A DNA stretch of 31,619 nucleotides from a virus. The stretch's first letter is position 1; every line of letters begins with the position of its first letter. Below, in pieces: positions 1,950-7,659 of this stretch. The translations under genes were made by a program, and so were the position numbers. The notes below the pieces were generated by a model. It had not been told where the DNA came from, did no database searches, and worked only from the letters and a program-made list of their open reading frames with translations. The stretch spans positions 2,134 through 33,752 of IMG/VR virus record IMGVR_UViG_3300030117_005958; one strand, written 5' to 3'.

Positions 1950-2297
1950 TTAATGGTGGTGGGAATATTTTTTCTTCTTGTATTTCTTGTACTTTTTCTT
2001 CTTGTATTTCTTTTTGTAATACTTTTTCTTGTACTTCTTCTTCTTGTAATACTTTTTCTTGTACTTCTTTTTGTACTTCTTTTTATAGTGCGTATGTCCC
2101 TTGTATTTATAGGGGTGACTATGGTAGTGGCTGCTGTGTGTGTGCCAGTAGTGGTCATAGTATTCATAGACTACATAGTACGAGGGGTACACGATGTAAT
2201 ATTCTTCATACTCGTAGTGGGGATTGTGGGTGGAGTGGGCGAAAGCACATCCTGACAGGAGTGCTAGAAATAAAGTCAGGGTAATAATTCTTTTCAT
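1950..2297 (-). CDS. Putative lipoprotein with His/Tyr-rich and Lys-Tyr repeat regions
   Basis: This 115-residue protein has an N-terminal MKR, a hydrophobic stretch ITLTLFLALL and a lipobox LSGC, so Cys17 would be lipidated and the protein exported by signal peptidase II. AFA-H just after it could alternatively be a signal peptidase I site. Residues about 21-70 are rich in Tyr and His (Y-H-W clusters); about 71-112 are almost only Lys and Tyr, in units such as KKKYKKKY, ending in SHHH. The mature protein would be strongly basic and aromatic. The ATG has GGAGG eight bases upstream. It follows uvsX by 40 bases and probably shares its transcript. No family is recognised. A membrane-surface role such as blocking superinfection is a guess from the export signal only. 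Confidence 0.7.
   Translation of the reverse strand: MKRIITLTLFLALLSGCAFAHSTHNPHYEYEEYYIVYPSYYVVYEYYDHYWHTHSSHYHSHPYKYKGHTHYKKKYKKKYKKKYYKKKKYKKKYYKKKYKKKKYKKYKKKKYSHHH
1965..2095. repeat. Low-complexity tandem repeat coding the Lys-Tyr tract
   Basis: The plus strand is an imperfect repeat of TTTCTTCTTGTA-like and CTTGTACTTTTT-like units, almost without C/G variation. On the minus strand it reads as repeated AAG/AAA and TAC/TAT codons, encoding the Lys-Tyr tail of the lipoprotein. Units of differing length suggest growth by replication slippage. Confidence 0.75.
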
Positions 2298-2337: not shown

Positions 2338-3438
2338 TTATTCATCCTTTTCTTCATAAAAATCTTCAGCCTTACCCAATCGCTTGTCGAACTTCTGAAT
2401 GACTTCTTCGTCCATAACGTCATAGACGCGCTGTTTAAACACAGGGTCTTTCATCTTCTCGTCCCACTTGGAAGGTTGGAACTTTACAACTTTGCCATCG
2501 CCCATCTCTAAAGAATACCAAGCGCCAGAACTCGTCATATAATTTGAGCCTTTGATGGCCTCAAACAAACTCTGATCGTCTTGGACGCCGATGTCTTCAG
2601 TTCCCCAAAGAATCTTAAAGTTGCACTGACGCCCTTGAGTTCCGAACCTGCTCTTTTCTAGCTTGACCTTTACCTCAGAGCCGATGCGAAAGCCACTATC
2701 GTCCAACACGAAAGAAGCCTTTGCCTTGCGGCCTGTCAGCCAAACACGCAAAGAGTATGCATAGATCATAGCCTTGCCGCCCGGAGTAACATAGGGAGTA
2801 GTCAAAGCCTCGCTTGGGCTTCTGGTAATGTTACTCTTCAACTGATTCAAGACCAGAAAGGTTGATTGACTGTTTGCAATCGGAACAGTCAACTTTGACA
2901 TTCCTTTGGCCAAGATTCTAGCCTTTACTGCCATGGAAGACTGTGGATTAAAGTCTCCTTCCACATCGGAAATAGCAGGTGTAAGAGCCAGAGAATCCCA
3001 AATAAAAAGCATACGATTTTCATTGTTAGCCAGAAGATCCTCGATAGTTTCCAAGACAAACTCAACAGACTGAGCTTGAACATAAAGAATAGTTTCAACA
3101 TCACACCCCGCCCTTTCCAAAAAAGTTGGATCAATCGCAGACTCTGAATCAAAATAGATCACATCGATGCCCATCTTTTGAGCGTTTGCTGCGACTTGAG
3201 CAGCCATGTAAGACTTACCAGTTGCCTCTAACCCCGCGATCTCAGTTACTTTACCGACTGGGATTCCGGCTAACTTTCCTTTGCAAATGATAGAGTCAAG
3301 CCAGCGAGAGCCAGTTGGAATCCAATCATTCACCTCAGTTGGATTCTCCTCATTTAAATTGTGAGCTACCGTCATGCCTGCGCGTTTGTTAATTAACTTA
3401 CGCATGTCGGCCATAGATAGCTTTCCTGTCTTAGCCAT
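2338..3438 (-). CDS. uvsX: UvsX-like RecA family recombinase
   Basis: The protein has 366 residues, close to T4 UvsX (about 390). After an N-terminal helical part, Walker A is GLEATGKS (69-76) and Walker B is MLFIWDS (143-149). FDSES (97-100) holds the RecA-type acidic strand end, and LVLNQLKSNITRSPSEALTTPYVTPGGKA (about 195-223) spans the motif-3 Gln/Asn and the disordered DNA-binding loop L2. The C-terminal tail is acidic, as in RecA proteins. It should coat gp32-covered single strands and catalyse strand invasion, driving recombination-dependent replication. AAAGGAG lies just upstream of the ATG, and a hairpin separates the gene from the AIPR-like gene before it. Confidence 0.95.
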   Translation of the reverse strand: MAKTGKLSMADMRKLINKRAGMTVAHNLNEENPTEVNDWIPTGSRWLDSIICKGKLAGIPVGKVTEIAGLEATGKSYMAAQVAANAQKMGIDVIYFDSESAIDPTFLERAGCDVETILYVQAQSVEFVLETIEDLLANNENRMLFIWDSLALTPAISDVEGDFNPQSSMAVKARILAKGMSKLTVPIANSQSTFLVLNQLKSNITRSPSEALTTPYVTPGGKAMIYAYSLRVWLTGRKAKASFVLDDSGFRIGSEVKVKLEKSRFGTQGRQCNFKILWGTEDIGVQDDQSLFEAIKGSNYMTSSGAWYSLEMGDGKVVKFQPSKWDEKMKDPVFKQRVYDVMDEEVIQKFDKRLGKAEDFYEEKDE

Positions 3439-3463: not shown

Positions 3464-3479
3464 GGGGCACAAGGGCCCC
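3464..3479 (-). terminator. Hairpin after the AIPR-like gene (probable weak terminator)
   Basis: Sense GGGGC-CCTTGT-GCCCC forms a 5-bp GC stem followed shortly by TACACTTTT. It lies between the stop of the AIPR-like gene and the uvsX ribosome site. Its sequence is nearly identical to the hairpin behind gp32 (4817-4836). The U-tract is short, so partial read-through is expected. Confidence 0.5.
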
Positions 3480-3492
3480 AATGTCATGCAGC

Positions 3493-4743
3493 CTATGTAA
3501 AGCTTGGCTGCTCCATAAGTTCACGCAATGTTTCATACAATTGATCATATTTAGCTGGGCTGTTTGCAAAATCAGATCGTCTTGTGGCACTGGTCCTGTC
3601 TAGGTATGCTCGTGCAAAATCAGCATTCACAATATCAATCAGGCTCTTTCCATGAGAATCCCACAAGGACTTGGCATCAGAGATGTTATGCTTGGAATAG
3701 AACTTGCCCTTTGCGGTGTTGTATCCAAAACAATTTCTAACAAAAGCATACACAAACATTGGGATAATATCCTTGTTTACCGCTCCTTTGACTTCATTAC
3801 CATGCCAATCATGCTGGGAAAACAATTTACGCTTGTGGGCTGGTAAGTCCAACTGCTTGCCAGAGTGCATTTTAATAATAGGATAATCACAACTTGACAA
3901 TTCTGTACCAAGCACTTTGGCCATGGAAGCTTGAATATAGTCGGAAAGCTCTAGCACAAAATCAGCATGCTCAAAGGCTTGCTCCATATAATTAGAACAA
4001 CTACTGCCTTGGCGTAGAAGGGCGATAGACTTTGCCTCTCCTGCTTTGGGCAACGAAGCGATATCAGAAACTGCACCGCCATCACAATAAGTCATGGGTA
4101 AAAACGTAGACATAATTCTAATAAGCTGTTGAGCCTCATTTTCCGCTTTAATCTTTTTGCCCTTGGTGTTGAGTTGGTTCTGGCACCAGCCGATATTTGA
4201 TAAGTCAGTATAGGTAATGTGCGACTTAAGGTCATCGAAAAGGCCTTCAATGTGAGCTTCGCTGGTAACCTTTTGAGCAGTGCGATTGTTAATCGCTTGT
4301 GCTGCTCCTCTGATTTCAGATACAGAGTTATACACCCTAGACTCATGCAAGGTTAAAAGCACACAGTTGTTGTACGCGGTGTCAGGGTTTTTTTCCAATA
4401 CAGTATCAACACCATAAATTGTGTGCTGACCATCATAGTGTCCTGTATTTTTGTCAGTGCATGCAAAATAAACAAGGCCTGTTTGTTCATCAAATAGTAA
4501 AGAGCCATTATCAATTGCAGCTTGAATGCCTCCGTTTTTTACGGCAAAGCGATTATCATTAGCTTCAAAAGAAGATTTAATATCTTTAACAATTTTGCTG
4601 TTTTTGTCAATATGGCGAGGGTTTACTCCTTTTGGAATTTGCCCAAGCTTATTGTTCTTGTTTGGCTTAACATACATTGAATATGTTCCGTTGCCATTTG
4701 TTGTAAAATTAGTACATTGAAAAATAATTTTTTGATTCATCAT
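3493..4743 (-). CDS. AIPR/DGQHR-like protein, possible defence-related or nucleic-acid-associated function
   Basis: The 416-residue protein contains FAVKNGGIQAAID (66-78) and, after a beta-rich linker, HYDGQHTIYGV (102-112). This pattern, an F-x-x-x-N-G-G-I segment followed by a G-Q-(H/T)-T loop, is what I know from the AIPR family (abortive infection phage resistance proteins, usually NGxQT) and from DGQHR-motif proteins such as DndB. The rest is mixed helical with several Cys and His but no clear zinc site. AAAGGAG precedes the MM start. The gene stands alone between two matching hairpins, between gp32 and uvsX, so it is likely separately regulated. Function is unknown; a ParB/DndB-like nucleic-acid activity or a counter-defence role is inference. 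The family call is from motif memory only. Confidence 0.55.
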   Translation of the reverse strand: MMNQKIIFQCTNFTTNGNGTYSMYVKPNKNNKLGQIPKGVNPRHIDKNSKIVKDIKSSFEANDNRFAVKNGGIQAAIDNGSLLFDEQTGLVYFACTDKNTGHYDGQHTIYGVDTVLEKNPDTAYNNCVLLTLHESRVYNSVSEIRGAAQAINNRTAQKVTSEAHIEGLFDDLKSHITYTDLSNIGWCQNQLNTKGKKIKAENEAQQLIRIMSTFLPMTYCDGGAVSDIASLPKAGEAKSIALLRQGSSCSNYMEQAFEHADFVLELSDYIQASMAKVLGTELSSCDYPIIKMHSGKQLDLPAHKRKLFSQHDWHGNEVKGAVNKDIIPMFVYAFVRNCFGYNTAKGKFYSKHNISDAKSLWDSHGKSLIDIVNADFARAYLDRTSATRRSDFANSPAKYDQLYETLRELMEQPSFT

Positions 4744-4801
4744 AATATTTTCTCCTTTGTGATATCTTGGCTATCTACAGCCCATCACTGTTGTGGAATC
4801 T

Positions 4802-4836
4802 AAAAATATAAAAGCGAGGGGGCACAAGGCCCCCCC
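4802..4836 (-). terminator. Rho-independent terminator after gp32
   Basis: Sense GGGGGC-CTTGT-GCCCCC makes a 6-bp GC stem (extended by neighbouring G and C runs), followed by TCGCTTTTATATTTTT. It lies directly behind the gp32 stop and should end the gp32 transcript, a common arrangement for this highly expressed gene. Confidence 0.72.
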
Positions 4837-4841
4837 CTATG

Positions 4842-5591
4842 TTAGCCTGCCAGTTCTTTGAGTGCGGCCTCAACATCATTGGATGCTTCAGTCTTAGAAG
4901 CATACTTTGTTGTCTCAGAGGATTCAGCCTCTGCATCAACATTAGAGTTGAGGAATTCATCAAGGATGCCTTGCACATCCTCAGTAGACTTGCGCTCAAA
5001 AAGCGTGTCAAGGTCAGGGACAGTTGCGACAATCTCTTGGCATGCTTCATCACCATCTTCGCATAGTGGGGAGGATTTACGCCGTGGCTGCACCTTGGTC
5101 TGAGGATACATCATGCCGGGAGCCTTGCCGTAAGAGAGAACAAGATCAGTTCCCTCTCCGGGGTCAGTAATGTCGCCATAGTCTGGGTTGAGAACCAAAC
5201 TAAGGAGGGTTTCGTATACGGTCTTTCCGTATCCCCAAACCTTTACGCCTTCTGTTTCTTGTCCACGAACAAGGACAGGCGAAAAGAAGCGCTGGCGAGC
5301 AAAGAGGCTTTTTGCTTGCTGAATGCTCTCTTGCGAACCCTCGTTGAAGAGTTTGGTCGCAAAGTTGCAAACAGGGCAGTCATCCCCAAAGTTGCGCTTC
5401 GGACAAAGGAAACCAGAGTTGTTTCCAAGATTGTAGTGAAAGTGATGCTCCTTAAAAGGATCTTCGTCCGGGGAAGGGAGAATGCGAATTACATTCTCTC
5501 CGTCTTGAGGACGCCAGAAGTCAGACTTCTTTCCCCCCTTTCCTTGAGCAGCAGCTAGCTTCTGTTTCATTTTATCGAGATTAATTCCCAT
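4842..5591 (-). CDS. gp32: Single-stranded DNA-binding protein (gp32-like)
   Basis: The 249-residue protein has the gp32 plan: a short basic N-terminus (MGINLDKMKQKLAAAQGKGGKK) for cooperative contacts, a core with a structural zinc site, and an acidic C-terminal tail for partner proteins. The zinc ligands follow T4 gp32 spacing: His50, Cys63 (FLCPK), Cys72 and Cys75 (CPVC), that is H-x12-C-x8-C-x2-C. The tail is rich in Asp, Glu and Ser. It covers single strands at forks and works with UvsX. The gene has its own sigma70-like promoter and a terminator, so it forms a single-gene unit. It is shorter than T4 gp32 (301 residues). Confidence 0.93.
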   Translation of the reverse strand: MGINLDKMKQKLAAAQGKGGKKSDFWRPQDGENVIRILPSPDEDPFKEHHFHYNLGNNSGFLCPKRNFGDDCPVCNFATKLFNEGSQESIQQAKSLFARQRFFSPVLVRGQETEGVKVWGYGKTVYETLLSLVLNPDYGDITDPGEGTDLVLSYGKAPGMMYPQTKVQPRRKSSPLCEDGDEACQEIVATVPDLDTLFERKSTEDVQGILDEFLNSNVDAEAESSETTKYASKTEASNDVEAALKELAG

Positions 5592-5648: not shown

Positions 5649-6484
5649 GCACTTTTTTCATTTTGTATAAAAGAAGTACTCGCGACGAAATAAGCGTATT
5701 TATCAGCGTATTGTGTAGGAAATACACCATAAGATACTTTAACATCTTTTTCTTGTGGCGAATCTTTTACTTGCTCCATAATCTTACTCATTAAAGTCTT
5801 ATCTGTTTTTAGTTCCGTTTCAGGAATGGCATAATAATATCTCTTCTCCACAACATTGTCAAGAGAAAAAAATGGGCTCTCCTCGCCCGTTTCTGGATTT
5901 AATATCCCAAAACTTGAGATCCGACAAATATCTTTTGGCCGGGACAAAGTTCCAACAACTGGATCTGTGTGATTGAATATGTTTATCATGTGAATAGTTG
6001 CAACGATAACTTCGTTTAATCTGTCGTAATATCCCATTATTGGCGCTCCGCCTAAGATTTTGTCAACCTGTTCGTTGCTAATGGCATAAAACTGCTTAAA
6101 AACTCCAGATCTAGCGTATTGTTGTAGGGCACCAAATACAAGATTTGTTTGCATTCTTCTCGTTTCAGATAGTGTGGCAACGTCTGGATGTATATAAAGA
6201 ATGCTTATGTCGCCCTTTCCATGAAGTTGTTCAAGTATTCTTAGAGATGCGCCAGATATTATGCTAGCCCCGGAAACAATAAACAAAATATCTCCTTTTA
6301 CATCTGTAAGCTTATCGCTAATGTCTGGAAAGTTTTGTTCGTACTTCTCTGGATGATCTTGTTTTGGTACGCTTATGGTTGCGTCTGGTTCATGATCTAT
6401 TGTTATTGTTTTATATTGTGGGTGTTTAGAGAACGCTTTGGCTATCTTATAGCCTACGTTACCCAGTCCAATTAATATATCCAT
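5645..6484 (-). CDS. FtsZ/tubulin-like protein with degenerate GTP-binding loop
   Basis: The 279-residue protein runs in parallel with FtsZ, as judged by eye. ILIGLGNVGYKIAKAF (3-18) matches the first strand and T1 loop. GDILFIVSG (64-72) matches the strand before the T4 loop, but the diagnostic GGGTGTG is replaced by SGASIISGAS (71-80). SETRRMQTNLVFGALQQYA (106-124) matches the EGKKRMxxAxxGxxxL helix, and QFYAISNEQVDKIL (131-144) matches LITIPNDKLLKVL. The C-terminal part could be the activation domain. GTP binding or hydrolysis is therefore doubtful. The start overlaps the polymerase stop by 13 bases with a poor ribosome site, implying translational coupling. A nucleotide-binding Rossmann protein is the alternative. 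The role is unknown; a filament or scaffold at the replication site would be speculation. Confidence 0.5.
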   Translation of the reverse strand: MDILIGLGNVGYKIAKAFSKHPQYKTITIDHEPDATISVPKQDHPEKYEQNFPDISDKLTDVKGDILFIVSGASIISGASLRILEQLHGKGDISILYIHPDVATLSETRRMQTNLVFGALQQYARSGVFKQFYAISNEQVDKILGGAPIMGYYDRLNEVIVATIHMINIFNHTDPVVGTLSRPKDICRISSFGILNPETGEESPFFSLDNVVEKRYYYAIPETELKTDKTLMSKIMEQVKDSPQEKDVKVSYGVFPTQYADKYAYFVASTSFIQNEKSA

Positions 6485-7659
6485 AAGTCTTTCATATCTC
6501 CAAATGTTCTGCCGCCGGCAACATTAACTTTAAATCTTCCAAAAGGAGTGTCCATAAATTCCCAAAAGATATCATTGATAGCACTTCCATCATCTAGAGA
6601 ATAATCAATAACTATACTGTCGTGAATTATAAACGCCATGTTAGATTTCATGTCTTTGAGCATATCTGCAATAATTACAGCCTTATCTAATATTAGATCG
6701 CTACAAGTGCTTTGCAGAAGATAGTTAAGCGCGTGATACCTGTCGCTTGGAATGGCTCTCCCATATGTTGTGTCAACCTTGTCCCCGTCCCAATGTGCGT
6801 CTACCAGTGCGTCTCTGTTATATATCTTAGATAAAACTTCATCGTTTGCGTTAGGATTATATAGCCAAGAAAAGATTCGCCTCTTTGCTTCGTCCCTTGT
6901 TAGTTTACCATCAAAAATCTCGTGAGAATTATGCTCATGCAAATCTATGTACGGCTGAGATTGTTTAAGCAAACCGAGCATGACTCTAAGTTCCGCCGCA
7001 TTATAATCTAGCTCAACAAACCAATCGTTATTGGGCTTTATAATTTTACGGAACTTCTTATCCATAGTTAAGATTGGAAAAGAGTTTTTCTCTGTGGTCA
7101 ATCGGCCCGTCTTTGTCCCAAAGATGTTGTAGTTTACAACTGGCTCTGTTCTCATGATCTTCTTGTAGAATTCTTTTGTTCTATAATCTGCCAAATCATT
7201 GTTAAGACATGACAAGTCTATATTTAATTTTTGATGCTTGATGTCTGTAGTGAGCTTCATAATATCAACCAAACTATTATAGTTGCTGGGCTTGTCATAG
7301 CTTTGCAAAACATGATCGGTTATCTTGTCCTTTAGCATGCAATACTCTTTTAGGAAGCCCTCCGGGACGAGATCAAAGAAGCAGTGGTCAGTTAATGATA
7401 TCTTTGAGATAACAAAAGATTTGTAAAATGCCTTAAGTTTTAGCCAGATACGCTCGTAATCCTCCCTTAGATGATCAGGGCATACTTCTCCCAACGACTT
7501 GCCTTGGCAATAGACATGTGCATACTGTATGTCGTTATTTTTTAAGAAAGAGGAATACTTCCAAGTTTTCGATATTCCTTCGGGTAGGTCCTTGTGAATA
7601 TGGCCATCAACATATACGCCAACACACTTCTCTTTTTCGTCTAAAGCCTGAAATAGCAA
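6472..7659 (-). CDS. Family A DNA polymerase, polymerase domain only
   Basis: The 395-residue protein carries the Pol I signatures: TKTGRLTT (182-189), motif A DYNAAELR (218-225) with catalytic Asp218, a fingers helix TRDEAKRRIFSWLY (254-267) with Lys259, RYHALNYLLQSTCSDLI (307-323), and motif C HDS (346-348) with Asp347. There is no room for a 3'-5' proofreading or 5'-3' nuclease domain; the latter is supplied by the gene at 699-1667. It is the only polymerase seen, where a T4 relative would be expected to use family B gp43. The start is TTG with AAGAAGG six bases upstream, 11 bases after a structural gene, so expression may depend on upstream transcription. The fingers motif is divergent. 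Confidence 0.88.
   Translation of the reverse strand: MLFQALDEKEKCVGVYVDGHIHKDLPEGISKTWKYSSFLKNNDIQYAHVYCQGKSLGEVCPDHLREDYERIWLKLKAFYKSFVISKISLTDHCFFDLVPEGFLKEYCMLKDKITDHVLQSYDKPSNYNSLVDIMKLTTDIKHQKLNIDLSCLNNDLADYRTKEFYKKIMRTEPVVNYNIFGTKTGRLTTEKNSFPILTMDKKFRKIIKPNNDWFVELDYNAAELRVMLGLLKQSQPYIDLHEHNSHEIFDGKLTRDEAKRRIFSWLYNPNANDEVLSKIYNRDALVDAHWDGDKVDTTYGRAIPSDRYHALNYLLQSTCSDLILDKAVIIADMLKDMKSNMAFIIHDSIVIDYSLDDGSAINDIFWEFMDTPFGRFKVNVAGGRTFGDMKDLWIY

Follow-up and report, generated by a model that had tools for sequence, protein, structure and literature searches.

A predicted ParB/sulfiredoxin-fold protein family gained and lost between gp32 and uvsX in uncultured T4-like phages

The window, by which we mean the whole 31,619-nucleotide stretch of DNA that was analysed, comes from the 33.7 kb IMG/VR virus record IMGVR_UViG_3300030117_005958. 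It carries a gp32-like single-strand binding protein (SSB) gene, a UvsX-like recombinase gene and, alone between the two, a gene for a 416-aa protein, all three on the minus strand (Table 1). PHROG matches identify both neighbours, in agreement with a preliminary description that had recognized a single-gene unit between gp32 and uvsX. The two motifs which that description had singled out, FAVKNGGI and HYDGQHTIYGV, are both present in the ORF, the former at residues 66-73 and the latter within GHYDGQHTIYGV at residues 101-112. The two flanking hairpins it had reported were likewise recovered: RNAfold predicts similar, G+C-rich structures at both ends of the gene, namely GGGGGGGC-CTTGT-GCCCCCTC after gp32 and GGGGC-CCTTGT-GCCCC on the other side. 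Elsewhere in the window, a 395-aa ORF with a TTG start (6472-7659, minus strand) matches a phage DNA polymerase profile in its C-terminal part only (phrog_17 964-1074) and may encode a short or split polymerase, and a 115-aa ORF (1950-2297, minus strand) combines a signal-peptide-like start with long Lys/Tyr/His-rich repeats.

Table 1. Coordinates of features in the window and of cargo genes at the equivalent site in other loci
Feature	Coordinates	Strand	Basis
GHYDGQH-family gene, 416 aa	3493..4743	-	ORF; homologs in 43 loci; AlphaFold2 pLDDT 92.7 with 32-row alignment
UvsX-like recombinase gene, conserved downstream neighbour	2338..3438	-	phrog_97, 1.1e-52
gp32-like SSB gene, conserved upstream neighbour	4842..5591	-	phrog_1192, 4e-31
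Terminator-like hairpin after gp32	4816..4836	-	RNAfold; aligned to single terminator of empty relatives
Second, similar hairpin 3′ of GHYDGQH gene	3464..3479	-	RNAfold
Structured leader RNA: outer stem, inner hairpin, 3′ bulge	4760..4787	-	Covariance-model match, 16.0 bits; covariation in 18 leaders
Ribosome-binding site AAAGGAG, 1 nt from leader structure	4752..4758	-	Sequence
Codons for GHYDGQH, residues 101-107, most conserved block	4423..4443	-	32-sequence alignment
Codons for residues 16-157, predicted ParB/sulfiredoxin-fold domain	4273..4698	-	VIA-align; hhalign to AIPR over residues 40-156
ParB/DGQHR-like-motif cargo	L016 8866-9834; L032 8949-10094; L034 8842-10056; L066 6806-7972		
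ParB/DGQHR-like-motif cargo	L098 1369-2505; L102 1850-3025; L104 325-1461; L113 2094-3323		
Post-methyltransferase genes with similar N-terminus	L122 1262-2017; L146 4380-5345; L157 4933-5892; L164 3240-4382		
Post-methyltransferase genes with similar N-terminus	L165 4790-5899; L104 2398-3444; L252 (after second methyltransferase)		

Queried singly, the 416-aa protein has no significant relative in Pfam, PHROGs, NCBIfam, PADLOC or the PDB, nor in phages, plasmids, IMG/VR contigs or GTDB contigs. Scans of viral and bacterial contigs for the motif DGQHTxYG returned chance matches only, such as a cyclophilin-like ORF. Scanning at the DNA level for the degenerate motif YDGQHT(hydrophobic)xx(hydrophobic) recovered 15 real homologs (phmmer 1e-23 to 1e-70), all of which adjoin uvsX and/or gp32, a context that was not used in the scan. 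A profile built from ten homologs then yielded 43 loci, constituting 27 clusters at 95% identity, all on uncultured viral contigs and, in the synteny survey that the preliminary description had called for, all beside gp32/uvsX. Wherever both flanks are visible the gene lies between them, the exceptions being L263 and L265, in which it directly follows uvsX. Three queries against 50,697 phage records retrieved no member of the family. The carrier phages appear to be T4-like and marine, judging from the gp32/UvsX gene pair, from contigs of 159-190 kb and from what generally applies to such contigs; the nearest isolate UvsX is 32.5% identical.

Across 32 aligned sequences, N41, P42, R43, G72, G101, Y103, D104, G105 and H107 are invariant, as are R145, N152, Q157 and S161. 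In the GHYDGQH block the two remaining positions are nearly so (Q106 in 31/32 and H102 in 30/32), such that the DGQH segment lies in the conserved core itself; an FxxxNxG(I/V) block precedes it (G72 in all, F66 in 31 and N70 in 22 of the 32). DGQH is followed by T, S, N or A in 31 members, with DGMHN in the one other, and as position 108 thus varies and is never R, GHYDGQH suits the family better as a name than DGQHT. The gene is under purifying selection, with dN/dS of roughly 0.04-0.3 in pairs of 88-98% identity. The locus common to all 43 relatives, the conserved GHYDGQH block and this selection together establish the gene as real, beyond chance, and the existence of a previously unnamed protein family, phage-only as far as searched, is solidly supported.

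The preliminary description had related the protein to both the AIPR and the DGQHR/DndB families. PF10592 scores the window protein at 13 bits (E 0.0013 in the 33.7 kb genome), below the Pfam gathering score of 25, and a whole-Pfam scan of this protein did not list AIPR. A home-made bacterial AIPR profile in HMMER did not raise the window protein alone above background, and its single-sequence hhalign comparison with AIPR is only suggestive (rank 2 of 770). Over the 32 relatives, AIPR is the top Pfam family, with 3/32 matching PF10592 (best 8.2e-6). As single-protein searches are too weak here, a family alignment is needed, and hhalign of the GHYDGQH family against AIPR proteins drawn from bacterial genomes recovers a homologous core (probability 90.3%, E 1.5e-6, score 53.6), placing NPR on NVR, FAVKNGGI on FxxYNNGI and AxxxN on ATN. 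The controls score 14.1 (reversed), at most 19.1 (60 column shuffles) and at most 17.8 (other phage protein families).

The tie to DndB is weaker: hhalign sets YDGQH on DGQHR at E 1.1e-3 against a DndB set of only six sequences, and the profiles PF14072 and TIGR03187 match nothing at E<=10 in the protein's own genome. Neither the NGGQT signature, which takes the form N-G-x-Q-T in all the bacterial AIPR motifs compared, nor the DGQHR pentapeptide occurs in the 32 sequences. Hence, the proposed relation stands at the level of profiles and structure, whereas the diagnostic signatures, an above-threshold AIPR score and a DndB profile match are missing. No hhalign profile signal was found to DUF262 (GmrSD), nor between the AIPR and DndB profiles directly, the latter again with six sequences. 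As the GHYDGQH family has ties to both AIPR and DndB, between which the direct signal is absent, it looks like a distinct intermediate, a member of neither, through which these two sequence families can be joined.

AlphaFold2 with the 32 relatives gave a model with a mean pLDDT of 92.7 and a pTM of 0.88; the single-sequence model of the window protein (pLDDT 34.5) was useless. In VIA-align comparisons with the PDB, the top rows are ParB 7o0n (Z 7.0, model residues 22-155) and ParB 7bnr (Z 6.7), followed by Noc, Pnob8-like ParB-N, PadC, BrxU, sulfiredoxin and SspE. All 13 best rows have the ParB/Srx fold (Z 4.0-7.0, model residues about 16-157). Each Z is modest, and it is the agreement across these rows that appears telling; the ParB/sulfiredoxin-like fold which the preliminary description had suggested seeking is thus supported, as a model-based prediction, for the first ~157 residues. 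Plain Foldseek against the PDB gave no match at E<=1e-3; against viral models its best match is annotated ‘AIPR protein’ (E 9.3e-8, TM 0.48/0.53), followed by GmrSD-N and DndB-like models. In the GHYDGQH family the phosphate-binding Arg of the ParB P-motif GxxR is replaced by T/S/N/A (GQH(T/S/N/A)). The C-terminal 260 residues are helical in the model, with no known fold convincingly matched.

Relatives without the GHYDGQH gene have one hairpin terminator in a gp32-uvsX gap of 32-126 nt. In contigs with gp32 identity of up to 98-99% or UvsX identity of up to 99%, a spacer of just 45-53 nt separates the two genes and accommodates one hairpin terminator and the uvsX RBS, and the GHYDGQH gene is absent in all of the window's nearest uvsX relatives. 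Its absence from near-identical relatives marks it as an optional insert. Among 115 distinct gp32-uvsX gaps, gathered via uvsX/gp32 similarity, 84 are shorter than 300 nt and the remaining 31 mostly contain cargo. On a uvsX tree of 139 rows, unevenly sampled, the gene changes between presence and absence at least 10 times; only this count was used, the ‘other ParB’ label on the tree having also caught methyltransferase loci. GHYDGQH protein identity is nearly uncoupled from UvsX identity (Spearman 0.23, 22 loci), as in L280 and L284, where UvsX is 94% and the GHYDGQH protein 27% identical. The turnover of the gene, by gain, loss and replacement, is much faster than that of uvsX. Near-identical hairpins bracket it also in L260, L264, L269, L273 and L284, each of the phage's own hairpin type, which suggests either that the terminator was duplicated with the insert or that recombination passed through the terminator; the bracketing hairpins are possible recombination handles.

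Such behaviour would also be expected of a free-standing, homing endonuclease-like selfish gene whose product cleaves the gp32-uvsX region in phages without the gene, into which recombination then copies it. We treat this as a serious rival, given the site-locking at gp32/uvsX in all 43 loci, the recurrent gain and loss among near-identical phages, and the T4 precedents of segG (32/59, cutting gene 32) and segA (beside uvsX, cutting uvsX) (PMC2988022). However, Pfam finds no HNH, GIY-YIG or LAGLIDADG domain, no sharp co-conversion tract is seen between the window and empty relatives, coupling to methyltransferase and restriction-like genes is atypical of homing genes, and whole methyltransferase modules occupy the same site; we accordingly consider homing unlikely.

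The cargo of the gp32-uvsX hotspot is diverse, including D12 (Dam-type) methyltransferases (PF02086, 1e-29 to 1e-30), their 250-380 aa downstream partners, GHKL ATPases, FKBP proteins and one AlaRS-core-like protein. Other methyltransferase plus restriction-like modules occupy it too, as do several mutually dissimilar, unrelated 320-410 aa proteins with ParB/DGQHR-like motifs (LLDGDHR, LDGKHR, LTGHHR). That of L034 matches PADLOC NsnA (2.8e-10); no family match was found for the other ParB-motif cargo, nor a second copy of that of L113. At this intergenic hotspot, phages exchange genes for methyltransferases as well as restriction-like and ParB-like genes. GHKL/HATPase_c_3 proteins are the sole or main cargo in L030 (8856-10418), L031 (1483-3069) and L036 (695-2338), and in L032 (8949-11025) the ParB-like cargo is followed by a 298-aa protein matching the alanyl-tRNA synthetase core (PF01411, 6.5e-21). 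The genes directly 3′ of the hotspot D12 methyltransferase have unrelated bodies and a similar N-terminus, M.P.ME.(F/W)R.Y(L/I/V).E, which is reminiscent of the leader that targets T4 internal proteins to the capsid; their products could be packaged and injected restriction enzymes.

The GHYDGQH gene itself is repeatedly coupled to such methyltransferases. In nine clusters the D12 methyltransferase starts -4 to +8 nt from the GHYDGQH stop codon, usually overlapping or abutting it, and in one further cluster, L267, about 32-59 nt past the gene; the catalytic DPPY is intact in 8/8 coupled enzymes checked. Two methyltransferases surround the gene in L252 and in L286/L256, the former also with a restriction-like gene. 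Adjacent methyltransferases are missing from the window and from about half of the clusters; the rest of the window's record and of the 83 kb L262 contig likewise yielded no methyltransferase. In the literature, Bacillus cereus has a ParB-adenine methylase fusion with nicking activity, and conflicts between phages and hosts repeatedly involve ParB-fold DNases/NTPases (PMC5512222); R-M operons commonly include AIPR proteins (PMC2292703); and ATP is bound by a ParB-fold/SAM methyltransferase fusion (PMC12704722).

The fold shared with SspE, BrxU/GmrSD and DndB, the coupled Dam-type methyltransferase and the rapid allele replacement typical of arms races could also point to counter-defence against host Dnd/Ssp, GmrSD or another system, either by mimicking or displacing a ParB-fold sensor or by helping to modify phage DNA with the coupled methyltransferase. 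We assign this reading a low probability: no defence component or host came to light, many members stand alone, and neither the position in the gp32-uvsX unit nor autoregulation calls for such a role.

The other recurrent element is a structured leader RNA next to the ribosome-binding site, comprising in most loci an outer stem, an inner hairpin stacked on the 5′ side and a 3′ bulge that is typically AGAU/AGAG. A strict scan finds it in 21/26 leaders as against 11/520 shuffled controls at equal score; among the remaining leaders, L260/L259 and L270 are readable by eye as variants. In 18 leaders, 99.4% of cells are paired and 10/10 pairs have double-sided changes (81 cells), which 0/500 shuffles reach, with slid versions attaining at most 48%; as this alignment was hand-registered to the structure, and so favours it, these controls and the covariance-model search weigh more than the raw percentage. 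That search, over 52 loci (490 kb, both strands), gave 14 matches at E<=5, all at the GHYDGQH leader and none at other cargo; since most lie in or near the training set, it speaks for specificity rather than independent discovery. With filters off, the window leader scores 16.0 bits and ranks no higher than second within the window, so that its assignment there is based on position and homology. A match to the leader region is absent from Rfam.

For the leader alone, a palindromic, parS-like operator bound by the protein as DNA comes into consideration, as the parS site bound by canonical ParB lies upstream of the parAB operon (PMC12704722). This is improbable, because stem sequences change freely but remain paired, and conservation is seen in the bulge and in parts of the loop, an RNA pattern, and because the structure directly abuts the RBS. 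T4 gp32 and gp43 repress their own translation via leader RNA (PMC3014915), and the resemblance to these leaders, along with the strict locus specificity, same orientation and purifying selection, might suggest a replication or recombination accessory working with gp32 or UvsX, such as a ParB-like DNA clamp or loader. Against this, the gene is absent in most close relatives, those behind the 84 short gaps, and evolves independently of uvsX; we rate such an accessory as improbable.

The preliminary description had raised counter-defence, a nuclease and a recombination accessory as possible roles; because of the content of the locus, we favour a role in conflict, as the most economical reading that we infer from fold, partners and turnover. 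On this proposal, to which we give about an even chance, the GHYDGQH gene would be mobile and encode a ParB-fold factor that regulates its own expression and acts on DNA in conflicts between phages or with the host, guarded in some cases by methylation. By its inferred biochemical activity, the protein would bind DNA, and probably nucleotide too, via a pocket formed by NPR, GHYDGQH and R145, and act on foreign or differently modified DNA of a competing phage or the host, with the coupled methyltransferase marking self DNA in some phages. It would keep its own dose low by binding its leader RNA and blocking the adjacent RBS, as do T4 gp32 and gp43, and the conserved gp32 and uvsX flanks would let the gene pass from phage to phage by homologous recombination. 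What counts against this proposal is that a catalytic residue set for a nuclease or NTPase is not apparent, that about half of the clusters lack the methyltransferase, and that the GxxR Arg is replaced and the C-terminus unmatched; moreover, all of the data are metagenomic contigs. A bolder version, in which RNA-autoregulated ParB-fold weapons, found only beside gp32/uvsX and spread via these flanks and phage recombination, attack the DNA of coinfecting phages under self-protection by the adenine methyltransferase or leader control, is possible though doubtful. Either way, a predicted defence-type fold is embedded among the core recombination genes of uncultured T4-like phages, and the leader RNA offers a regulatory handle open to direct testing. 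Should the conflict role hold, phage-phage competition would be directed from the centre of the replication module.

Among known systems, AIPR (PF10592; AbiU1/AIPR, in R-M and defence operons) shares with the GHYDGQH family a profile core, the collinear blocks NPR/NVR, FxxxNGGI/FxxYNNGI, YDGQH/VNGGQT and AxxxN/ATN, and a location beside methyltransferases. It differs in having NGGQT in place of DGQH(T/S/N/A) and a length of about 550-870 aa, as against mostly 420-460 aa in a family that is locked to gp32/uvsX and, as far as searched, confined to phages. DndB/DGQHR proteins (PF14072, TIGR03187) are similar in the alignment of (N/I)DGQHR with YDGQH and in the ParB/Srx fold, but are set apart by the lack of a profile match and by the Arg which the GHYDGQH family never has. 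The same fold is found in the GmrSD N-terminal domain (DUF262, PF03235), including BrxU (7p9m, Z 5.8, rmsd 12.6), from which the GHYDGQH protein departs in lacking a profile-profile signal and, by Pfam, an HNH/DUF1524 domain. The ParB/Noc CTPases come closest in structure (Z 5.8-7.0 over about 92-98 residues), whereas the GHYDGQH family has no GxxR P motif, no Pfam HTH match and a different C-terminal domain. Finally, the free-standing T4 homing endonucleases segG and segA occupy the same places in the genome, next to gene 32 and uvsX, and are likewise patchily distributed (PMC2988022), but the seg proteins have the GIY-YIG fold, in contrast to the ParB/Srx fold predicted for the GHYDGQH protein.
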